Shown here: one piece after another, positions 32,778 through 44,655 of the stretch
Position numbering within the stretch: position 1 is the first letter of the stretch
Layout: every line of letters starts with the position of its first letter
Assembly (NCBI GenBank): GCA_003105035.1
Contig: PQAL01000033.1
Coordinates: forward strand, 141,613 to 205,612
Direction of reading: 5' to 3'
From: Anaerolineales bacterium
GTDB lineage: Bacteria; Chloroflexota; Anaerolineae; Anaerolineales; UBA4823
DNA length: 64,000 nucleotides
Position numbers and translations under genes: made by a program
Notes under the pieces: model-generated
What the model was told of the DNA's origin: nothing
The model's database searches: none
What the model saw: only the letters and a program-made list of their open reading frames with translations

Positions 32778-34412
32778 CTACTTGATGGAGAACATCATCA
32801 TCAGGTACCACAACACAGCCAGATTGGAGCGCTGGATGACAAAGCCGAAGAAATAAATTAAGGCAAACACGATTAGCAGTCCGAATAGTAGAAGGACGAT
32901 GTCGAGCAATCGCCATGCACCTTTTCGGCCTGTGATAAGGAACCAGAAGAGGGTTGGTACCAGGAACAGCAATGAAAACGGATTGATGATCATGAAGTAC
33001 AGCGCGCCAAGGCCCACGATCATAAAGGCCAGGCTTTTGACGACCCCAAAACTTGGAGTTTTTACATCCTTAACAAAGCGTTGCAATATACGACGAGAAA
33101 AAAAGTAGAACGCAACCAGACTGGCGAGAAATATAATCACAGCAGGCCAGTGCGGGGTGACGATTACCGGGTCTTTCGTAGTGCCAGGATAAACAGCATA
33201 TTTATCCATCAAGCCTAAGGCAACCAATAGATAAAGAACCAATAAGGAAGCAACTAGCGGCAGCCACAGGCTCAGGAAGTGAGGCAGTGCGCTTGCCCAC
33301 CTTGCTAACTTGGTTCTAAAATCAGTTCGAGCGAAGGAGACTGCACCAACAAAAAATATTGCCGTGAAGCCGATGAAGAGTGAGTATAGAGCCGGCCCGC
33401 GAAAGAGCTGGTGGCTCGCTTCAAAGTACAGGTATGGCCCGGGGATATTCGGAAAGGACTGCATCGAGAGCAGTTGGCGGATGAGGGCTTCAGGGATACG
33501 TCCGGCGTGGTAGAGCGTATCAGCTGATTCGTACTCCATTGTGTCAAGTGGCGTGTGGTAGGTAGACCAGCTTAACTCGGCTGATTCAGGAGGAATTACC
33601 CCCGCGAATCCGATGGATGGTATTCCAAGGGCAACCATAGGTCCTTGGTCCATAAATGAAATTGGGACTGCCTGGTCTAAAATCTGGTCAATCGGAGCAC
33701 GGAGCTGGACAGTCCATAGATCTCCAGCTGCTTCAGCTACATCCTGTGCCATTAGGGGTAGCCAGATCTGCCCGTATTTTCGGAACTGGCCAACAACCTC
33801 AACTTTTAAGCCAGTGTAGAGCGCTTTACCGACATTGTCCAGAGAGATACCTGCGATAATGTTATCTGGCATGGCATGGGTCTGAAGGTAGCGTCGAGTG
33901 CCAAGCATGCCATACTCCTCTCCATCGGTTGCGACATAAGCCAGGGAGTACGGGAGTGGCTTCTCTGCATAAAACACCTTCCCAAGCTCGAGCAGAATGG
34001 CAATCCCCGAGGCGTCATTATCCGCTCCTTCAATGGTGGTGGATGCTTGATCAAGGTGAGCTACTACCAGGATTTCCTTATTCGACTCACCTGGCAACGT
34101 ACAGACAACATTGTTCATAGCCACCGGCACGCTATAGTTTATTACTGTCCAGGTGTCGATTTGGCAAGACCATCCATAAGCAATCATCTGCTTCTCAATC
34201 CATTCTGCAGCCAGGTGATTGTTTGGTTGACCGCTGGAACGGTTGGGAAATTGGCTGGCAAATTGACCTTGTAACGCAAAGGCGTTTTGCTTATCAAAGT
34301 TTAATGAATCAGGGTCATAAGTTATGAGTGATTGAGGTTCTGCGCTGCATGCGGTTAGGATAAGTGTGACAAATAAAATAATTCCTACATATTTAATATT
34401 CATGTTCGTCAT
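32778..34412 (-). CDS. M28-family metallopeptidase with C-terminal membrane domain
   Basis: A 544-aa exported zinc peptidase. The signal ends in a lipobox (LILTACSAE). The M28 domain (about residues 50-310) has the zinc and catalytic residues in VVAHLDQ, GADNDASG, ATDGEEYGMLG, SLDNVG and TYHTPLDT. Residues about 345-540 contain six to seven membrane helices. Enzymes of this group release N-terminal amino acids from peptides outside the cell; the membrane part is of unknown role. The start at 34412 has GGAGAG upstream. The TAG stop falls inside the last hydrophobic segment and the frame continues for 38 codons, so the protein may be slightly truncated. It precedes no other gene; a decayed paralogue lies at 6.3-7.9 kb. 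Confidence 0.88.
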   Translation of the reverse strand: MTNMNIKYVGIILFVTLILTACSAEPQSLITYDPDSLNFDKQNAFALQGQFASQFPNRSSGQPNNHLAAEWIEKQMIAYGWSCQIDTWTVINYSVPVAMNNVVCTLPGESNKEILVVAHLDQASTTIEGADNDASGIAILLELGKVFYAEKPLPYSLAYVATDGEEYGMLGTRRYLQTHAMPDNIIAGISLDNVGKALYTGLKVEVVGQFRKYGQIWLPLMAQDVAEAAGDLWTVQLRAPIDQILDQAVPISFMDQGPMVALGIPSIGFAGVIPPESAELSWSTYHTPLDTMEYESADTLYHAGRIPEALIRQLLSMQSFPNIPGPYLYFEASHQLFRGPALYSLFIGFTAIFFVGAVSFARTDFRTKLARWASALPHFLSLWLPLVASLLVLYLLVALGLMDKYAVYPGTTKDPVIVTPHWPAVIIFLASLVAFYFFSRRILQRFVKDVKTPSFGVVKSLAFMIVGLGALYFMIINPFSLLFLVPTLFWFLITGRKGAWRLLDIVLLLFGLLIVFALIYFFGFVIQRSNLAVLWYLMMMFSIK

Positions 34413-34757: not shown

Positions 34758-35675
34758 TTACTTGTTATTGACCCCCACTTCCAGTTGGCGGTGATACTTG
34801 AGCACACCCAGGTTGGCAAAGGCACCTTTGGCGAGGCTGCCGTCTTCGTAGATGGGGAAGGTCATATCCGAATCACGTAGCTGCTTGAGGGTTTGGGCCA
34901 GGCCAATGGTACCGAACTCCCGGGTGCGCGTGGTGTGGTCCAGGTCGATCATCTCGGTCAGGATAGTCTGGTTGGTGGAGGCTTCTTGTAAAATGCGCCC
35001 ATCCGGATCAATGATTGTTGATCGGCCACCACCCCAGGTGCCGACGCCATTGACACTGATGAAGTAGCACTGGTTAAATAAGGCATTTGCCCGGCACATG
35101 ACCAATTCCAGCTCACGGTCAGAGGTTGGAGTCAGCGTCGGCTGAAGGATAACTTCAGCGCCTTTCCAGATCAAGGTACGTGCCACCTCTGGGAACCACA
35201 TATCATAGCAGATGCACAGGCCAAATCGACCCACATCCGGGATATCGAAAACACAGAACTCATTTCCCGGTGTTACCCCGTTTTCATACGGCAACCACGG
35301 GAACATCTTGCGATATTTGCGGATGACCTCTCCTTGGGGTGAAATTACCAGGGCGGTGTTGTATAACTTATCACCATCCACCTCGTACATTGAACCTGGG
35401 ATCAGCCAGCGGTTCAGGCTACGTGCCAGGTCGCACAACTTTTCGGTAAGCGGGCCGGGGATGGTCTCAGAATTCTTTACCCGCCAGTCACGGTCCTGCG
35501 AGCTCACAAACTGGTCAAGACCGGGCACTACCAGCTCATGGAACATGATCAGCTGTACCCAAGGGAAAGATAGAGTCAGGTTGGTAGCAATTTCCTTCAT
35601 TTTATCCACAGTAGCCTGGGCATCAAACGCCACCACCTGCATTTGGACTCCAGCAATACCAAATAATCGGCTCAT
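34758..35675 (-). CDS. Nitrilase-superfamily carbon-nitrogen hydrolase
   Basis: A 305-aa cytosolic amidase-like enzyme. The Glu-Lys-Cys triad is present: Glu in MFHELVVPG near residue 45, Lys in IRKYRKMFPW near 120 and Cys in LCICYDMWFPE near 155. Length and motifs fit the aliphatic amidase/N-carbamoylase/beta-ureidopropionase branch, which splits C-N bonds of amides or carbamoyl compounds. It is last in a six-gene ABC importer operon, 4 bp after the ATPase gene, so it likely acts on the imported compound. I prefer the ATG at 35675 because the earlier one at 35690 overlaps the ribosome site GAGGAG and the end of the upstream gene. Substrate not determined. Confidence 0.9.
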   Translation of the reverse strand: MSRLFGIAGVQMQVVAFDAQATVDKMKEIATNLTLSFPWVQLIMFHELVVPGLDQFVSSQDRDWRVKNSETIPGPLTEKLCDLARSLNRWLIPGSMYEVDGDKLYNTALVISPQGEVIRKYRKMFPWLPYENGVTPGNEFCVFDIPDVGRFGLCICYDMWFPEVARTLIWKGAEVILQPTLTPTSDRELELVMCRANALFNQCYFISVNGVGTWGGGRSTIIDPDGRILQEASTNQTILTEMIDLDHTTRTREFGTIGLAQTLKQLRDSDMTFPIYEDGSLAKGAFANLGVLKYHRQLEVGVNNK

Positions 35676-35679
35676 AAAA

Positions 35680-36651
35680 TCACTCCTCATTCACCATATG
35701 GCAGGCGACTAACCTATTGGTTTTGACCTGCCTTAAAATCGGTTCATGCTCCCAGCAGATTGATTGGACCAATGGGCAACGCGTATGGAAACGGCATCCT
35801 GATGGCGGATTGATCGGGCTGGGGACATTGCCTTCAAGAATAGTAAGCTCGCGGGGATTATCTACATCGGGTAAGGGGATGGCACCAAACAAAGCTTGCG
35901 TATACGGGTGAAGCGGTAGTGCAAAAATGTCATCCGCTGGGGCAAGCTCCACCAGCTTTCCCAGATACATCACCCCGATGCGATCACTGATGTGCTGCAC
36001 GACGTTCAGATCATGCGAGATAAAAACGTACGTCAGGCCGTGTGACTTGCGCAGATCATCCAGCAGGTTGATTATCTGCGCCTGCACGGAGACGTCTAAG
36101 GCGGAGGTAGGCTCATCCAGCACGAGCAACCTGGGGTTTAGCGCCATGGCGCGCGCCACCGCCACGCGCTGGCATTGTCCACCCGAAAGCTCGTGGGGGA
36201 AGCGGTCAAGATGTTGGCGACCCAGGCCTACCTGTTCAAGCAGCTCAAGCACTCTGCCCCTGATCGCACTCTTCTCCACTTCCTTGTGGGTGACCAGCGG
36301 CTCAGCCACCACCTGCTCAATCTTCATGCGCGGGCTGAGTGAAGACAGGGGGTTTTGGAAGACAATCTGCATCTGTTGGCGCATCTGCCGCATCGCTTCA
36401 CCACTCAGGGTATTCAAATCCTTTCCATCAAACAATACCTGCCCGGACGTGGGCTGGATCAGCCTTAGTATGATGCGCCCCAGGGTCGTCTTGCCGCAGC
36501 CCGACTCTCCCACCAGACCGAAAACTTCCCCGTTCTCAACCGCAAGGTCCACGCCATCGACAGCATACACATAACGAATCTTACCGGTGAGCCAGCCGCC
36601 TGGCAGGCGAAAATATTTCTTGAGCAGGCGGACTTCCACCAGGGGCGTCAT
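35680..36651 (-). CDS. Peptide/nickel-type ABC importer ATPase (DppF/OppF-like)
   Basis: A 323-aa ATPase. Walker A is GESGCGKTT, the signature LSGGQCQRV and Walker B RLLVLDEPTSALD. The C-terminal oligopeptide-transporter extension has GCRFHTRCPLVQSICWE, with the Cys spacing seen in OppF/DppF that can bind a 4Fe-4S cluster. It is the second ATPase of the pair and overlaps its upstream partner by 4 bp. Together they power import of peptide-like or other organic solutes. It is followed by the nitrilase gene. Confidence 0.93.
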   Translation of the reverse strand: MTPLVEVRLLKKYFRLPGGWLTGKIRYVYAVDGVDLAVENGEVFGLVGESGCGKTTLGRIILRLIQPTSGQVLFDGKDLNTLSGEAMRQMRQQMQIVFQNPLSSLSPRMKIEQVVAEPLVTHKEVEKSAIRGRVLELLEQVGLGRQHLDRFPHELSGGQCQRVAVARAMALNPRLLVLDEPTSALDVSVQAQIINLLDDLRKSHGLTYVFISHDLNVVQHISDRIGVMYLGKLVELAPADDIFALPLHPYTQALFGAIPLPDVDNPRELTILEGNVPSPINPPSGCRFHTRCPLVQSICWEHEPILRQVKTNRLVACHMVNEE

Positions 36652-37637
36652 GCGCTTACCGCCTTTGGGTTTTCAGGATCCACCAGGAAGCAAGCACTGT
36701 TATGGCCTTCTGTGATTTGGTACAACGGGGGCACTTCCTGTGTGCAGCGTTCGAAGGCATACTGGCAACGCGGGGCAAACGGGCAACCGGGCAGGGCTCC
36801 GGGGTTGGAAGGCACCACACCAGGAATGACGGCCATCTTTCTCCCCCGGTCTCCAAGGCGGGGTACTGCTTCCATCAGCCCGCGTGAATAGGGGTGTTGC
36901 GGATTTTTGAATACCTGGTGTTTGGTACCAATCTCTACCACCCTTCCAGCATACAGGATCACCAATCGATCGACGGTTTGAGCCACCACCCCCAGGTTAT
37001 GCGTGATCAGGATGGCTGAAATATCGAACTGCTGTTGGAGCTCTTTCAGCAGCTTGAGTATCTGTGCCTGGATGGTCACATCCAGGGCTGTTGTGGGCTC
37101 ATCCGCGATAAGCAGCCTCGGCCGGCAGCTGAGGGCCATGGCAATCATCACCCGTTGCTGCTGCCCGCCAGATAGCTGGTGGGGGTAACTTTCAAGAATA
37201 CGCTGTACGTCGGGTAAGCCAACCGCCTGAAGCATGATCGAAGCATGGGCCTTTGCCCCGCTTTTTGAGAGCGGCGTATGGCGCCGGATGACGCGGATCA
37301 TCTGGTCGCCAATGGTAAACACAGGGTTAAGCGATGAGCTGGGGTCCTGGAAGATCATGGCTACCTGGCTACCACGCGCCTTCTCCATTTCAGCCTTGGG
37401 AAGCGTTAGCAGATCAGTGCCATCCAGCAGGATCTCCCCACGAGTGATGCGTGCTGAACGGGCCAGCAAGCGCAAGATGGTCAGCCCTGTGACGGTTTTA
37501 CCGCAGCCTGTCTCGCCTACCAAACCAAGTACCTCGCCTTTTTGCACATCGAAACTAATGCCGTTCAAGGCTTTCAAGTCACCCCGCGAGGTCTTGAACT
37601 CGAGGTACAGGTCGCGTACTTCCAGCAAGGTGCTCAT
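36648..37637 (-). CDS. Peptide/nickel-type ABC importer ATPase (DppD/OppD-like)
   Basis: A 329-aa ATPase with Walker [10 protein letters not shown], signature LSGGQQQRV, Walker [14 protein letters not shown] and the C-terminal extension [15 protein letters not shown]. It overlaps the permease gene upstream and the second ATPase gene downstream by 4 bp each, so subunits are produced together. The pair would form the two-ATPase motor of a family-5 importer. Confidence 0.93.
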
Positions 37638-38527
37638 CGATACTGCCTCGGGTCGAAGATATCACGCAACGTATCGCCCAACAGGTTGAAGGCCAGTACG
37701 ACGACGAAAATCGCCAGGCCTGGGAAGGTTGAGATCCACCATTGTTCCAGGATGTAGGTACGACCTTCCGAGACCATCAGGCCCCAATCGGGCGAAGGAG
37801 GCTGCGTGCCTAAACCCAAAAACGCCAGACCGCCCATTGCCAGGATGACTGTTCCAAGGTCAACCGTGGCCTGGACGAGGATGGCGGAGATTGTGTTGGG
37901 TAGGATGTGGCGCAGGATGATGACTGAATCACGCACACCGATCGCTTGGGCTGCTTCCACAAAGTAGCGCTCTTTCAGGCTGATCGTGACGCCACGCACC
38001 AGTCGCGTATACCAGGGCCACCATGAAACGATCAGGGCAATAGCGGCGTTTTGCAGACCCCGGCCCAGGGCGGAGGCAATGGCCATGGCCAGCAGGAGGG
38101 ATGGGAAAGCCAGGAATAGATCGGTGATGCGCATGATCACTTCATCTACCCAGCCGCCTTTGTAACCGGCGATAGCTCCCAAGGGTGCTCCGATCAACAC
38201 CGCGAACAGCACCACACCGATGGGTACGATCAAGGCAGGGCGCGCCCCCACGATTACACGGCTGAGTACATCCCGGCCGAGTTTGTCACAACCGAATGGG
38301 TGCTCTATAGAAGGTGGGCACAGCGAAGTTGGCACATTGGTTTTCCCCGCACCTTGCCCAGGGTAAGGTGCCACCTGGTAGGCAAATATTCCAATCAGGA
38401 TAAAAACAATGATAACAATGGTGCTGATCAACGAAAGGGGGTCACGCAGGATGACATTCAGCACATGCCTGGAGGTGCGGGTGCTCTGGATTTCGGGCTC
38501 AACGGTTATTGCAGGTAAGGATGACAT
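37634..38527 (-). CDS. Peptide/nickel-type ABC importer permease (DppC/OppC-like)
   Basis: A 297-aa permease with six membrane helices and the OppC-type N-terminal segment FGCDKLGRDVLSRVIVGAR, followed by the EAA loop EAAQAIGVRDSVIILRHILPN contacting the ATPases. Residues near the end (LGLGTQPPSPDWGLMVSEG) match the conserved family tail. It starts 1 bp after the partner permease gene and overlaps the next gene by 4 bp. Confidence 0.93.
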   Translation of the reverse strand: MSSLPAITVEPEIQSTRTSRHVLNVILRDPLSLISTIVIIVFILIGIFAYQVAPYPGQGAGKTNVPTSLCPPSIEHPFGCDKLGRDVLSRVIVGARPALIVPIGVVLFAVLIGAPLGAIAGYKGGWVDEVIMRITDLFLAFPSLLLAMAIASALGRGLQNAAIALIVSWWPWYTRLVRGVTISLKERYFVEAAQAIGVRDSVIILRHILPNTISAILVQATVDLGTVILAMGGLAFLGLGTQPPSPDWGLMVSEGRTYILEQWWISTFPGLAIFVVVLAFNLLGDTLRDIFDPRQYR

Positions 38528-38528
38528 A

Positions 38529-39551
38529 TTATTTCAGAGAAACACGCGGGTCAATCCAGGCCTGGAGCAGATCAACTCCCAGGTTAATGAGCACATACAT
38601 GGTGGCCCCATACAGGGTGATGCCCATGATGGCGGGGTAATCGATATTCAGCAGGGAATGGACAGTGAATAAGCCCAATCCGGGCCAGTTAAATATAATT
38701 TCGACGAAGAAAGTACCGGTTAAGGCATAGGCGAAAGTCAGGCCAATGACGGTGAGCGAAGGACTGATCGCGTTCTTTAATGCGTATAGATATACGATCA
38801 CTGTCTCCCGGATGCCATAGGCGCGGGCGGTACGGATGTAATCCTGTTCCAGCACTTCGAGCATGGTGGCGCGCGTCATGCGGGCTACAAGGCCTGCTGG
38901 ATAGGCTGCCAGGGTGAGCGCTGGGAGAATTAGGTGAAAAACCACGTCCTTGAAAGCGATCCAGTTGCGCATCAGCAAAGCATCGATCAGAAGGAAATTC
39001 GTGACCGGGTCGATCGGATTGGTGAAGCGTAATTCATTACTGAACCTGCCTGCCAGGGGTAGCAGGTCCAGCCGACGGAAAAATAGTATTTGCAACAAGA
39101 GTCCCAGATAAAAAGCAGGCAGAGAAACGCCGATGATGGATACAGTGCGGACAAAAATATCGGTTGGTTTCCCCTGCCAGCGGGCGCTCAGTACACCCAT
39201 CGGCACGCCGATGAGCACAGCCAGCAGCATGCCGGTAAAAAGCAGTTCCAGGGTAGCGGGCAAGCGGGTTGTCAACTCTGTTAGAACCGGGCGCTTGGTG
39301 CTTATTGATGTCCCCATGTCACCATGCAACAGGTCACGCATGTAAATGTAGTACTGCTCTGGTAAAGACTTATCCAACCCTAATTGTGCAGTCACCCGGG
39401 CGATATCTTCGGCCCGCGCTTTAGGGCCGATGTACAACACCGCCGGGTTGGAGGGGATGACCCGCGCCAGCGCAAAGGTGATGATCGATACCCCGATCAG
39501 CACGAATATTGAAGTGATCAAGCGCCGGATGATGTATTCAAGTCTGCGCAT
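38529..39551 (-). CDS. Peptide/nickel-type ABC importer permease (DppB/OppB-like)
   Basis: A 340-aa permease with a first helix (residues 9-30), the OppB-type external segment DLLHGDMGTSISTKRPV and the EAA loop RTARAYGIRETVIVYLYALKN. Six helices in all. It lies 95 bp downstream of the binding-protein gene, with a stable hairpin in the gap, and 1 bp before the second permease. The two permeases form the membrane channel. Confidence 0.93.
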   Translation of the reverse strand: MRRLEYIIRRLITSIFVLIGVSIITFALARVIPSNPAVLYIGPKARAEDIARVTAQLGLDKSLPEQYYIYMRDLLHGDMGTSISTKRPVLTELTTRLPATLELLFTGMLLAVLIGVPMGVLSARWQGKPTDIFVRTVSIIGVSLPAFYLGLLLQILFFRRLDLLPLAGRFSNELRFTNPIDPVTNFLLIDALLMRNWIAFKDVVFHLILPALTLAAYPAGLVARMTRATMLEVLEQDYIRTARAYGIRETVIVYLYALKNAISPSLTVIGLTFAYALTGTFFVEIIFNWPGLGLFTVHSLLNIDYPAIMGITLYGATMYVLINLGVDLLQAWIDPRVSLK

Positions 39552-39646: not shown

Positions 39647-41347
39647 TTATTGCGCCGGAGTCAACTGGTAGAACCAGAAGGGCGTGAAGGGATAGTTCAA
39701 GTTGTACTCGAAGCCGGCAATGTGATTAGGTATGACGTAGGCAGCCATGGTGTCAAAGAAGAATACACCTGGAGCCTTATCAACCAAGTAGTTCATCGCT
39801 GTGATGTAATCCTGCTGGGAGGCAGTAGGATCGGTCACTGTTTCACCAATAGCCTTGTCGAGCGTAGTATTGTATTCCGGGTCGTACCAGTACGACAGAT
39901 TGAAGGCGGTCACATTCAGGTGAGGGGCTGCCTCAGCGCCATAGAACATTGACCACAGGTTGTCTGAACCGGCATCGGAGTAGGTTGGCCAATAGAGCAG
40001 GAGGAACATGTCTTGGGCATTAGCCGGGTCAGCTTTGGCTTGCTCCCATTGCTGGCTGAACAGGATAGGCTCGATGGTGACATCGACACCGATTTGGGCG
40101 AAGGAATCCTTGATCAGCGGGGCGAACAGGGTTTCAGCAGGGTTTTCGGAGGCATGCGTTAGACGAATGGAGAAACCACCATCGGGGTAACCTGCCTGGG
40201 TCAGCAATTCCTTGGCTTTGTCCAGGTCATACGTGTATTGAGTCACCTGGTCAGACCACGGCCATACGCCCTCAGGGACGGGGCCTCGGCTTTGTGTGCC
40301 AAGCCCAGTCACAGCAATATCGATGATGTCCTGGTAGGGAATCGCATAAGAGAGCGCCTGTCGCACAAGTGGGTTATCCAACGGTGGTCGCAAGACGTTG
40401 AAGAAGCCAACGTAATTGAAGAATGACTTTTCGCGATACACCTTGTAATCCGGGTTACCATCGAAAGAGGTCAGGTTCTGGGTCGGAATGGTGCCTGCCA
40501 GGTCAACTTCACCACCCTCAAGCAGTTGCTGCTGAGTGGTGGCTTCTGGCACGATCTGCACCAGGACGATGTCATAATTGTTTGGCTGCCAGCCGCCCCA
40601 ATAGTTATCGAATTTCTTAAACACCACTTCCTGATCGGGGGTAAAGGAATCGAGCATATAGGGGCCAGTCCCAGCTTCCTTACCTGTCTCATAGTAGGCT
40701 CCATCGGCTGCCACGGCTTCCAGGGCTTTGGGGCTGATGATCCAGGCGCCGTAGAGTGAAGAGGCAATCAGGTCCATTGGTGCAGAATAGGACAGGTTGA
40801 AGACTACCGTATAGTCATCGGGTGTTTCGATGGTATCGAGGGGCAGCCAGATAAAGGAGGCACCACCATGATCCTTGGCAGCTTCGATGGACAGTTTGAC
40901 CGCATTGGCGGTCATCGGCTCACCATCATGGAAGGTGACGCCCTGGCGTAGATGGAAGGTCCATGTCAGGCCATCCGCGCTGGATTCCCAGCTCTCCGCC
41001 AGAAGGGGGGTGAAACGTTCAGCAGCGCTTGGAGGGTTGATGCGCAGGAGCTGCTCGTACATGTTTGCCATGTAAGCCGCTTCAGTAGAGAAGGACTTGA
41101 CCGGATCCCATGTGGTGAAGTTGGCTGTCAGGGCGATGCGCAGCACTGTGGGTGCCTTGGTGGGCTCTGGTTTGGGTACCTCCGTGGGAGGCACTTCCGT
41201 CGGGGGCACTTCGGTGGGTTTTACTTCAGCGGTGGGCGGGGTAACCGGTGCCTCAGTTGCAGCAGGGGTAGCCGTCTGCCCGCCACAAGCGGTCATCAAA
41301 AGCACAACCGCCAGCAAAATGAAAATGACCAAACGATTAGGTTTCAT
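39647..41347 (-). CDS. Extracellular solute-binding lipoprotein, family 5 (DppA/OppA-like)
   Basis: A 566-aa binding protein. Signal and lipobox LLMTACGG place Cys near residue 21; a linker with three PTEVP repeats follows. The domain begins near residue 75 (LRIALTANFTTWDPVKSF) and shows family-5 features: LAESWESSADGLTWTFHLRQ, GVTFHDGEPMTANAVKLS, GTGPYMLDSFTPDQEV and RQALSYAIPYQDI. Family members bind peptides, nickel, sugars or other organic compounds; I cannot say which. The ATG at 41347 has GAGAGGAG upstream. It is first in the operon and has a clear promoter at 41390-41418. Confidence 0.93.
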   Translation of the reverse strand: MKPNRLVIFILLAVVLLMTACGGQTATPAATEAPVTPPTAEVKPTEVPPTEVPPTEVPKPEPTKAPTVLRIALTANFTTWDPVKSFSTEAAYMANMYEQLLRINPPSAAERFTPLLAESWESSADGLTWTFHLRQGVTFHDGEPMTANAVKLSIEAAKDHGGASFIWLPLDTIETPDDYTVVFNLSYSAPMDLIASSLYGAWIISPKALEAVAADGAYYETGKEAGTGPYMLDSFTPDQEVVFKKFDNYWGGWQPNNYDIVLVQIVPEATTQQQLLEGGEVDLAGTIPTQNLTSFDGNPDYKVYREKSFFNYVGFFNVLRPPLDNPLVRQALSYAIPYQDIIDIAVTGLGTQSRGPVPEGVWPWSDQVTQYTYDLDKAKELLTQAGYPDGGFSIRLTHASENPAETLFAPLIKDSFAQIGVDVTIEPILFSQQWEQAKADPANAQDMFLLLYWPTYSDAGSDNLWSMFYGAEAAPHLNVTAFNLSYWYDPEYNTTLDKAIGETVTDPTASQQDYITAMNYLVDKAPGVFFFDTMAAYVIPNHIAGFEYNLNYPFTPFWFYQLTPAQ

Positions 41348-41389
41348 GACGATTCTCCTCTCTTTTATTTGAGATACTGTTAGAATACT

Positions 41390-41418
41390 ATCATATCCGG
41401 TTTGCAAAATCTTTGCAA
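41390..41418 (-). promoter_or_regulatory. Importer promoter overlapping two heptamer direct repeats
   Basis: On the minus strand, TTGCAA (41418-41413) and TATGAT (41395-41390) are 17 bp apart, and transcription would start about 36 nt before the binding-protein ATG. The heptamer TTGCAAA occurs twice here (41412-41418 and 41401-41407), with an 11-bp period. SARP-type regulators bind such helix-phased heptamers next to the -10 box. The divergent neighbouring regulator has a SARP-type domain, so this is a good candidate operator. It also sits 4 bp from that regulator's start codon. Confidence 0.6.
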
Positions 41419-41421
41419 TTT

Positions 41422-44400
41422 ATGAAGCCCTCCACGTTGCTTTCAACTAAATTTCTGCTGCCACGGCCAGGACGGGGCTATTTACCCAGGCCGCATCTCA
41501 TCCAATGGCTTAATAATCATCTGGATAGGCGCATGGTATTGATATCTGCCCCTGCAGGTTATGGAAAGTCCAGCTTATTGGCTGAGTTCCTGACGAGCAT
41601 TGATCTGCCTGCAGCCTGGTACCAGCTTGATCCCACTGATTCTGACCCATATATCTTTATGACCTATTTGATTGAGGCCATGCGGCGGATGCGGATGACC
41701 CACCTGCCGCGTGGCGCCATCCTTGGCCAGAATGCCGAGGCGTTGCTTGAAAACCCGCAGTCCATCAGCGAGCCACTGCAGGTGATGACCGTCTTGATCA
41801 ACGAGTTGAGCGAGCAGTTGAATCAACCCTGCTTGGTTGTGATGGATGATTATCATTACATCACGTCTCTGGTCGTCCACCAGCTGGTGGATTATCTGCT
41901 TGAGAATGCACCACCAGTTTTTCACCTGGTGCTTTCAACGCGCATTGACCCACCGCTTTCGCTGGCTCGCCTGCGCGCACGTGGCAACCTGGCAGAGCTG
42001 CGCTTGAATGACCTGCGCTTTAGGGAAGATGAGATTAGTGAACTTTTACAAATGGATGTGCCGGGCTTGTCAACAGAAAGCCTCAACATGCTGAATGAAA
42101 AAACTGAGGGATGGGCTGCAGCTTTACAAATCGTACGCTCATCCCTGGCTGGCTGTGATTCGGCAGGGGCATCGGAAGTGATTTCGAGCCTGAGTGGTTC
42201 GCAAAGGTTCGTTTTTGAATATCTCACCGATGAGGTCTTTCGACGCCAGCCGGAGTCTACCCAGCAGTTTTTGTTGCATACAGCCGTACTGGCTCAGATG
42301 GATCAGCCGGCCTGTAATGCACTGACAGGGATGAGTGATGCCCAGGAAATGCTGGAAAAACTGGAGGAACAGAACATCTTCGTCACCAGCCTGGATGTCC
42401 ACAGGCAATGGTATCGTTACCACTATCTGTTCCGTGAATTTTTGCTCAGCAAATTGCGTCGTGAACAGGTTGAGCTATTAAAAAAGCTTGAAGGTGAGGC
42501 TGGACGTTACTATGAAGCTCTCTCCGAATGGGACACAGCCTTTCAGCATTATCTCCAGGCAGATGAGCCTGAATCGGCTTCACGCTGTGCGTGTAGTTTT
42601 GCTGCAAACTATGTCGAGAGAGGCCGCGTGGAAGCCTTACACCGCTACCTTTCCAGCCTACCACCCGATGTTATCAACCGCTACCCGGAGCTTTTACTTC
42701 AGCTTGGGAATGTATACTGGCGCATGGGTAAGTCGGGGTTAGCAGTGGCTGCCTATGAGAAAGCTCAGACTGCGTATCTTTCGGAATCAAATGCCTCGGG
42801 GGTCAGCCGGGCGCTCACTTGCCTGGCTGAGGTCGATAGGTCTCAGGGGAATTACCAAAAAGCTGAAGGGTTGGCTTCAGAGGCCTTACATGCTGCACCT
42901 GCCAATGACCATGCTTGCAAGGCAGAAGCACTGATCGCTTTGGCTAAAAGCACGGGCTTCCTCACGGGTATGGATCGCGGCCGATCACTGGCTGAGCAGG
43001 CAGTCAGTGAATCGCGTCTTGCAATGGGAAGCTTATCCCCTTTGGCTATGGCTGGCTTCCTCCAGTCGCTTGGGCAAATCTGCTGGTGGGCAGGTGACCC
43101 GCAGGCTGCGGTGGAGCACGCACGGGAAGCCCTACGCCTAGCACCGGATGAGCTTTCTCCCATGGCCGCCCAGGCGTATATATTGCTGGTCAGCCCCTAT
43201 CTTTACTGGCGTGATTTCCAAAATGCCCTGCATTATGCTGAGCGGGGCTTGGGCATCGCTCAAACCCTCCACCTGACGGAGCTTCTCCCTGCGGCTTACA
43301 CCGCTCTGGGTAATGTGCTTACCCGCCTGGGAGAAATGGCGAGGGCAGAATCAGCCCTCAAACAATCCTTGGAGCTGGCCAGCCAGTTGGGCACAGCTTC
43401 GTATGAACGGATGCTGGCTACGGGTTATCTGGCACTAAACCTGTGTAGCCAGGGCCGTGTGGATGAAGCCTGGCAGCTTGCTGAAGGTGCCCTGTGGGTT
43501 TACAGGGGTCATCCGGACGCGTATGAAGTGTACGTCTGCCGCAGTGTGCTGGCAGATACGGCCCTGGACAAAGGCATGTTAGCAAGGGCAGAGCAGCTCT
43601 ATCTTGAGCTGGTGGAAGTGGGAGAGCGCAGGCAATTCCGCATCCCTCTTGCCCTGGTGTACCTCGGATTAGCTTACATCCACCTGGTTAGTGGACGCAA
43701 GGAGACGGGCATCGAGCACGCTAACCACGCTTTACGCTTGATCGAACCAACCGGGGCATTTCAGTTGTTCATCGACCAGGGAGAACGCTCGCGGGTTGTC
43801 TGTAATGCTTTGATGGAAGCTGGCTGCCGTACTCCCTTTATCGAGCGTGTGCTTGAGAATTTACCATCAACACACCGCAGGGGAGTGATCACTTTTAGCG
43901 ATCATTCTGCCATTATGGTACATTGCCTGGGAAGTTTTCGGGTATACCGGGGAGGTGAGGAGCTCACCCATGAACACTGGGTATCGGCCAAGGCGCGCGA
44001 CCTTTTGGCTTATTTCGTCACTTATCGCACCGAGCATATTCCTGCAGAGCAAGCTTTTGAAGCCATCTGGTCTGAAAAGCCCGGACGTAGCCTGACGGCT
44101 TTCCACACGGCACTGTCACGCTTACGAAGCGCTTTAAAGGGGCGGGACCCTGCACCGCGTTTTATCCTGGTTGAAGCAGGTGAGTATCACCTGGACATCG
44201 CCCGTTTTAGCATCGACGTGGAAGAGTTCGCAGCAGCCATGGCTAACGCCCGGGCAGCAACAGAAGATGAAGCCCTCGCTCACTGGCTGGAACAGGCGAT
44301 CAACCTGTACCAGGGAGAATATTTACAAAACCTTTATTATGATTGGCTTCTCCACGAACGCAGGCGGCTAGCTCAAGAATATCTGGGGATACTCAGGCAG

Positions 44401-44655
44401 CTGGCGGATTTCCATTTTACCCATGAACGGTACACTCGCTCGTTGGATCTGTTGCATCGCGCCTTGCGCGTGGACAATTTGCTGGAGGAATTGCACTGCC
44501 AGGTGATGAGGGTATACTGCGCCCTGGGTGATCGGGCTGGATTGATGCGCCAGTATCAGGATCTGGTTGAGATTTTAGCGGATGAGCTGGGGGTTCAACC
44601 TTTACCCACCACTGATAAACTTTATACCCGCTTGCTCTCGGTGCTTGCCGGGTAA
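41422..44655 (+). CDS. MalT-like ATPase regulator with C-terminal SARP/BTAD domain
   Basis: A 1077-aa transcription regulator. Residues about 5-30 have the MalT-type lead-in STKFLLPRPGRGYLPRPHL; the STAND/AAA ATPase follows, with Walker A SAPAGYGKSSL near 52 and Walker B CLVVMDDYH near 140. A winged-helix part (about 240-330) leads to TPR-like helical repeats (about 330-820). The C-terminus has an OmpR/SARP winged helix (VHCLGSFRVYRGG then VSAKARDLLAYFV, about 835-920) and a BTAD domain (about 930-1075). MalT itself ends in a LuxR HTH; here that is replaced by SARP. It is divergent from the importer operon, 74 bp away, and probably activates it in response to an inducer. The ATG at 41422 lacks a ribosome site. 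Confidence 0.88.
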   Translation: MKPSTLLSTKFLLPRPGRGYLPRPHLIQWLNNHLDRRMVLISAPAGYGKSSLLAEFLTSIDLPAAWYQLDPTDSDPYIFMTYLIEAMRRMRMTHLPRGAILGQNAEALLENPQSISEPLQVMTVLINELSEQLNQPCLVVMDDYHYITSLVVHQLVDYLLENAPPVFHLVLSTRIDPPLSLARLRARGNLAELRLNDLRFREDEISELLQMDVPGLSTESLNMLNEKTEGWAAALQIVRSSLAGCDSAGASEVISSLSGSQRFVFEYLTDEVFRRQPESTQQFLLHTAVLAQMDQPACNALTGMSDAQEMLEKLEEQNIFVTSLDVHRQWYRYHYLFREFLLSKLRREQVELLKKLEGEAGRYYEALSEWDTAFQHYLQADEPESASRCACSFAANYVERGRVEALHRYLSSLPPDVINRYPELLLQLGNVYWRMGKSGLAVAAYEKAQTAYLSESNASGVSRALTCLAEVDRSQGNYQKAEGLASEALHAAPANDHACKAEALIALAKSTGFLTGMDRGRSLAEQAVSESRLAMGSLSPLAMAGFLQSLGQICWWAGDPQAAVEHAREALRLAPDELSPMAAQAYILLVSPYLYWRDFQNALHYAERGLGIAQTLHLTELLPAAYTALGNVLTRLGEMARAESALKQSLELASQLGTASYERMLATGYLALNLCSQGRVDEAWQLAEGALWVYRGHPDAYEVYVCRSVLADTALDKGMLARAEQLYLELVEVGERRQFRIPLALVYLGLAYIHLVSGRKETGIEHANHALRLIEPTGAFQLFIDQGERSRVVCNALMEAGCRTPFIERVLENLPSTHRRGVITFSDHSAIMVHCLGSFRVYRGGEELTHEHWVSAKARDLLAYFVTYRTEHIPAEQAFEAIWSEKPGRSLTAFHTALSRLRSALKGRDPAPRFILVEAGEYHLDIARFSIDVEEFAAAMANARAATEDEALAHWLEQAINLYQGEYLQNLYYDWLLHERRRLAQEYLGILRQLADFHFTHERYTRSLDLLHRALRVDNLLEELHCQVMRVYCALGDRAGLMRQYQDLVEILADELGVQPLPTTDKLYTRLLSVLAG

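Follow-up and report, generated by a model that had tools for sequence, protein, structure and literature searches.

Locus and regulator

The 64,000-nucleotide stretch of Anaerolineales DNA analysed here (the window) carries a large regulator gene divergent from an operon for a peptide-type importer and an amidase. The importer ATG (41347, minus strand) and the regulator ATG (41422, plus strand) are separated by a gap of 74 bp. The features are as follows.

34758..35690, minus strand: CN hydrolase (amidase/nitrilase superfamily)
35680..36651, minus strand: ABC ATPase, OppF/DppF-like
36648..37637, minus strand: ABC ATPase, OppD-like
37634..38527, minus strand: ABC permease
38529..39551, minus strand: ABC permease
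39647..41347, minus strand: substrate-binding protein of the importer (SBP_bac_5, Pfam)
41385..41390, minus strand: TAGTAT, predicted -10 box of the importer, separated from the downstream heptamer by 10 bp and assigned from the TA...T spacing in orthologs
41390..41395, minus strand: TATGAT, the -10 box of the earlier note, probably not the -10
41392..41393, minus strand: TG of the TG-extended -10, one base ahead of the box in 31/36 in-register loci
41401..41407, minus strand: downstream heptamer TTGCAAA, kept in orthologs (-29 to -23 if TAGTAT is -12 to -7)
41412..41418, minus strand: upstream heptamer TTGCAAA, kept in orthologs (-40 to -34 if TAGTAT is -12 to -7)
41422..44655, plus strand: regulator, 1077 aa, with a MalT-like ATPase and TPR part (aa 6-825) and a C-terminal SARP domain (winged helix and BTAD, about aa 826-1077)

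The order of binding protein, two permeases, two ATPases and CN hydrolase is common to the window, G354, G047 and G299, the loci read that far, which supports the proposal of the earlier note that regulator, operator, importer and amidase form one unit. The best models were those of peptide, nickel and glutathione transporters and of formamidase/aliphatic amidase, all scoring under their cut-offs. In the window the amidase gene is followed, in the same orientation, by a Peptidase_M28 gene (32778-34412); no counterpart was noted there in the other loci, which were read for gene order.

In the regulator, Pfam detected AAA_16, TPR_MalT and BTAD (79.7 bits, cut-off 22.1), with Trans_reg_C (24.0 bits) just under its cut-off of 26.2. 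The NCBIfam models MalT and AfsR covered aa 6-825 and aa 826-1073, respectively, both under cut-off; the MalT equivalog model, matched by residues 6-825 only, scored 304.6 bits where its cut-off is 537. The C-terminal 251 aa matched AfsR (8hvr, E 2.2e-14) and EmbR (1.9e-8), and with an AlphaFold model from 11 orthologs (pLDDT 89.4), every one of the six PDB structures matched below E 0.001 was AfsR or EmbR. AfsR is therefore the closest known protein by sequence and predicted fold, and the earlier assignment of this C-terminus to SARP/BTAD holds. An OmpR-type winged helix is followed by BTAD, as in SARPs generally, but the domain occupies aa 826-1077 rather than the N-terminus, its place in the large actinobacterial SARPs. 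Among the DNA-contacting residues of AfsR listed in the excerpted text of PMC10936776, W74, P79, T88, S91, R92 and R94 are kept, those of the recognition helix corresponding to T896, S899, R900 and R902 of the window regulator; Q48, R87 and K95 are replaced by Lys, His and Ser. Twelve places in the same genome match the regulator, and seven of these (itself included) extend to the C-terminal SARP domain.

Repeats and promoter in the gap

The minus strand of the gap reads TTGCAAA (41418-41412), gatt, TTGCAAA (41407-41401), a direct repeat with a period of 11, and 10 bp later TAGTAT (41390-41385). TATGAT (41395-41390) begins 5 bp past the second repeat and 17 bp from TTGCAA. The gap length, the divergent 1077-aa regulator and the exact 11-bp period of TTGCAAA had all been described correctly. 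The string TTGCAA-5-TTGCAA is found a single time in the window (0/100 shuffles), and the 4.45-Mb genome has it nowhere else. When only the 90-bp stretch was shuffled, identical 7-mers recurred 11 bp apart in 87/20,000 cases, and at any period of 8-30 in 405/5,000; because such repeats arise by shuffling, the window repeat by itself is only suggestive, and orthologs had to decide.

We placed TAGTAT at -12 to -7 by assumption. In this assumed register, the two 11-bp units would span -40 to -19 with their centre at -29.5. The earlier note had taken TTGCAA as a -35 element, but it stands 22 bp from the conserved -10. Across the 36 in-register loci, hexamers at 15-19 bp spacing gave means of 0.33-1.69 of 6 matches to TTGACA, with no clear -35. 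Because no hexamer at this spacing resembles a -35, the promoter looks activator-dependent.

Conservation in orthologous loci

Regulator orthologs (38-66% identity) came from searches of 61, 396, 152, 46 and 151 genomes, in overlapping sets; a single-protein query of genome contigs returned no matches, and an alignment-based search succeeded (at least 80 loci). The 44 ortholog loci used are those given as loci with a gene start. Twenty-nine of them belong to one family (f12), a kinship that inflates the counts, and loci L094-L122 in part duplicate the same genomes under public names. G351, where no site precedes the importer gene, was left out of the 44, its regulator being a fragment at a contig end. 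A binding-protein gene lies on the divergent side in 39/44 loci; L079 runs out at the contig edge before reaching it, and L047, L049, L053 and L093 have none adjoining.

A pair of heptamers with at least 5/7 identity, set at period 11 and followed by TA...T after 10 bp, was present in 37/44 loci (shuffle mean 1.59, maximum 6), and at 6/7 identity in 35/44 (shuffle mean 0.17, maximum 2). When other periods were tried at 5/7 identity, 8-10 and 12-21 yielded 0-3 loci, and 22, two turns, yielded 12. The earlier note had staked its proposal on heptamer conservation in orthologous loci, and the heptamers are conserved: in 36/44 loci they stand in exact register before the binding-protein gene of the importer, and in one more (L079) with a 9-bp gap. 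The site lies ahead of an importer gene located away from the regulator in 3/44 loci, and in 4/44 (G195, G079, G069 and G072) the repeats are degenerate but in the same register, as aligned by eye. L109, an ortholog on a public contig, reads CTGCGAA-4-TTGCGAA-10-TACAAT. In L054 the importer gene adjoins the regulator and no clear site was seen.

These alignments also bear on the simplest account of the gap, an ordinary sigma-70 promoter accompanied by a chance repeat. A simple promoter scan does report TTGCAA-17-TATGAT, and the shuffled gap yields a period-11 7-mer repeat at the rate given above. However, across 39 loci (the 44 minus L047, L049, L053, L093 and L054), TA...T follows the second repeat at 10 bp in 34 cases and at 5 bp, where TATGAT would fall, in five, and the repeat itself is conserved, so that we give this account a practically negligible chance. 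The conserved -10 is thus TAGTAT, TG-extended and 10 bp from the repeat, in place of the TATGAT at 5 bp that the earlier note had proposed. The five of the 39 loci that depart from the 10-bp spacing are L079 and the three-repeat loci L051, L055, L056 and L057, which had been anchored on their first two repeats; from the last repeat of these four, the gap is 10 bp to TAGAAT, TATAAT, TATAAT and TATGCT, respectively (L051 and L057 by eye).

A rule covering all SARP-ended regulators was considered and rejected, since 49 distant homologs, for which a SARP end was not required, showed no clear excess of adjoining sites. Directly upstream of these low-identity homologs, the layout occurred in three minus-strand loci (L124, L152 and L170) and one plus-strand locus (L133), and periods of 8-10 and 12-16 gave 0-2 loci on the minus and 0-3 on the plus strand. 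Two of these occurrences, both within chance, are CTGTGAC-4-CTGTGAC-10-TACACT in L152 (a Chloroflexales contig) and TTATTGA-4-TTGTTGA-10-TATGAT in L124 (a Bacillota contig), each upstream of a distant regulator homolog.

Association with the regulator and with the importer gene

The strict pattern YTGCAAA-4-YTGCAAA-10-TANNNT was scanned over 152 genomes of one family, giving 34 sites in 32 genomes and none with the reversed control. It was present in 31 of the 37 genomes with a regulator ortholog against 1 of the 115 without (G468), for which Fisher's test gives p = 3.6e-25 with kinship ignored. The sensitivity of the pattern is partly circular, because it was drawn after sites from some f12 genomes were known; its near-absence from the 115 regulator-less genomes is not. 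Among the six genomes that carry the regulator but not the strict pattern, G455 and G427 have one-base variants and G522 a 9-bp gap, the regulator is truncated by the contig end in G523 and G552, and in G457 only aa 269-1073 of it are found, inside a long contig. The sites at the importer gene make up 31 of the 34; the remainder are G354:C38:19568, G540:C60 and G468.

Both TTGCAA and TCGCGA, a word of another lineage, are palindromic, and another protein might read the site as a dimer. We regard this as quite improbable, since the pattern tracks the regulator, the GTGTCAG/GTGTGAG words of G038 are not palindromic, and direct repeats at 11 bp agree with the SARP rule as the excerpted sources give it.

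A site within a divergent gap could equally face the regulator. In the window only 3 bp separate the operator from the start codon of the regulator, so that binding could affect the regulator gene there, and autoregulation might be the main role of the site. Over 36 loci, however, the distance from operator to regulator start ranges over 3-213 bp, and the spacing from operator to -10 is constant; the target is therefore the importer promoter. Four genomes (G206, G414, G589 and G072) have the importer gene without an adjoining regulator. In G206 the site precedes the importer gene 11 kb from the regulator, and in G414 and G589 it likewise precedes an importer gene away from the regulator, with three repeats in G589. 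A site mainly for the regulator's own promoter is thus highly improbable. The degenerate site of G072 reads, by eye, GTGTCAG-4-GAGTTAT-10-TATAAT; that of G069, where the importer gene adjoins the regulator, reads GTGTCAG-4-TGGTAAT-10-CATAAT, also by eye.

Apart from the operator, an exact TATAAT lies 6-11 nt ahead of the regulator start codon in 29/44 loci (e.g. L044:1486-1503), a position that suggests leaderless transcription of the regulator in those loci. The window has no TATAAT at the regulator start, the nearest similar hexamer being TATCAT, 27 nt off.

Operator words and recognition helix

Heptamers vary by lineage, while copies inside one site remain alike and change together. Words of the TTGCAAA type occur in f1, f12 and f52, TCGCGAC/TCGCGAA in f29 and GTGTCAG/GTGTGAG in f3, and three repeat copies are found in f60, f53, f72 and f34. 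Recognition-helix residue 899 is Ser (once Thr) in the TTGCAAA-type lineages and Tyr where the repeats are of another type or threefold; over 73 loci, duplicates included, there were 51 Ser, 14 Tyr, one Thr and seven without a match to the search expression. A link between residue 899 and the operator word is possible and is confounded by phylogeny; because the state of the residue follows phylogeny, it provides no independent proof. The lineage-specific heptamers and the recognition-helix difference nonetheless form natural data on how SARPs read DNA.

Comparison with known systems and proposed mechanism

The nearest parallel is AfsR at the afs box of the afsS promoter in Streptomyces coelicolor. 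AfsR shares the SARP domain by sequence and fold and has additional ATPase and TPR domains. As described in the excerpted text of PMC10936776, the afs box also spans -40 to -19 with its centre at -29.5, comprises two 11-bp direct repeats beside a poor -35, and, when bound by AfsR, activates; the SARP offers sigma region 4 another docking point over the poor -35. AfsR differs in that its SARP domain is N-terminal, whereas the domain here is C-terminal and the ATPase/TPR part is MalT-like, and in that its target is a regulator of antibiotic genes and not an importer. The afsS repeat, CGTT(T/C)ATCGNN in the part of PMC10972967 available to us, differs from TTGCAAA. The earlier note held that actinobacterial SARPs bind heptamers 11 bp apart next to the -10. 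The 11-bp spacing stands (direct repeats at 11 or 22 bp being the SARP arrangement), as does a box over a poor -35 region, but the last repeat lies 10 bp from the -10 in this heptamer frame, whose start is partly convention, against the 8 bp that the excerpt of PMC10936776 gives for SARPs in general.

The SARP-LAL regulators PimR, SanG and PolR of Streptomyces likewise combine a SARP domain with a large ATP-binding regulator part, and read 7-bp repeats of CGGCAAG, with 4-bp spacers for PimR (excerpts of PMC5930380 and PMC10972967), a word close to TTGCAAG/TTGCAAA. Their domain order is reversed relative to the window regulator, they control antibiotic gene clusters, and the main PimR operator, as far as the excerpt of PMC5930380 describes it, does not overlap the -35, unlike that of the window. 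EmbR of Mycobacterium tuberculosis has the same winged helix and BTAD fold, but with a C-terminal FHA domain (PMC10936776, in excerpt) and no MalT-like part; MalT of Escherichia coli resembles the regulator in its N-terminal ATPase and MalT-like TPR region. Among the matches listed from the open-access literature, no title concerned a SARP operator in Chloroflexota or Anaerolineae.

We propose, with a probability of roughly 0.8, that the divergent regulator uses the heptamers as its operator and acts as a SARP activator in place of a -35 at the importer promoter. What sequence comparison establishes is a conserved site of fixed spacing that occurs together with the regulator and is linked to the importer gene, and a C-terminus homologous to SARPs; from these we infer binding by the SARP domain, activation as the sign of control and gating by a ligand. 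Two C-terminal SARP domains would sit next to each other on the same face of the DNA, each protomer contacting one heptamer. Since the importer promoter has a TG-extended -10 (TAGTAT) but lacks a clear -35, the bound SARP would take over the role of the -35 and, like AfsR, dock RNA polymerase. A ligand, perhaps the compound taken up, probably gates activation through the MalT-like ATPase/TPR part. Under this control would stand the peptide-type importer and the amidase, and in some relatives also an aldehyde:ferredoxin-oxidoreductase-like gene.

The same protein at the same site could instead repress the importer until a ligand releases it, as a protein bound over -40 to -19 (in the inferred register) might also block polymerase. 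Yet the lack of a -35-like hexamer gives the promoter its activator-dependent look, and AfsR at the same position activates according to the excerpt cited above, which makes repression unlikely.

Chloroflexota have many MalT-like regulators, and for one of them the window offers an operator, a promoter and a target operon that can be put to the test. It also suggests that SARP activation by -35 replacement is not confined to actinobacterial antibiotic genes. On a wider reading we see the odds as even: the AfsR-type promoter may be an old bacterial switch and not an actinobacterial antibiotic device, joined in Chloroflexota, in reversed domain order, to MalT-like sensor ATPases that govern the uptake of peptides or amines and, in several lineages, also an aldehyde:ferredoxin-oxidoreductase step, its operator words having drifted in step with the recognition helix. 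Were this so, these families could allow some of the SARP-DNA code to be deciphered.

Possible further targets

No second target is claimed in the window's own genome, where up to two mismatches gave nine matches (one perfect) against two with the reversed control. The 160 bp ahead of the aldehyde:ferredoxin-oxidoreductase relative encoded there (64% identity) contain no site. Elsewhere, the strict pattern precedes a peroxiredoxin-like ORF at G540:C60:21048-21081 and a transporter-like ORF at G468:C549:7574-7607, the latter genome being without a regulator ortholog; from the neighbouring ORFs, both matches were judged probably chance rather than real targets.

G354 has another perfect site (L212:1570-1602), whose end lies 20 bp ahead of an aldehyde:ferredoxin-oxidoreductase-like gene, near a class III aminotransferase gene. 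A search of 19 genomes gave 14 relatives of this gene (at least 72% identity, G354 included), and six of them, in G354, G494, G572, G548, G577 and G047 (L262-L266 besides G354), have the operator directly upstream. The oxidoreductase-like gene, beside aminotransferase genes, is on this sequence evidence likely a second target in part of the lineage, and with the importer and amidase it would make up a regulon for peptide/amine breakdown. Five of the six sites have the 10-bp gap and one a 9-bp gap, the second heptamer being mostly degenerate (e.g. TTGAAAA), and scanning the 14 upstream stretches on one strand recovered five of the six and nothing more.
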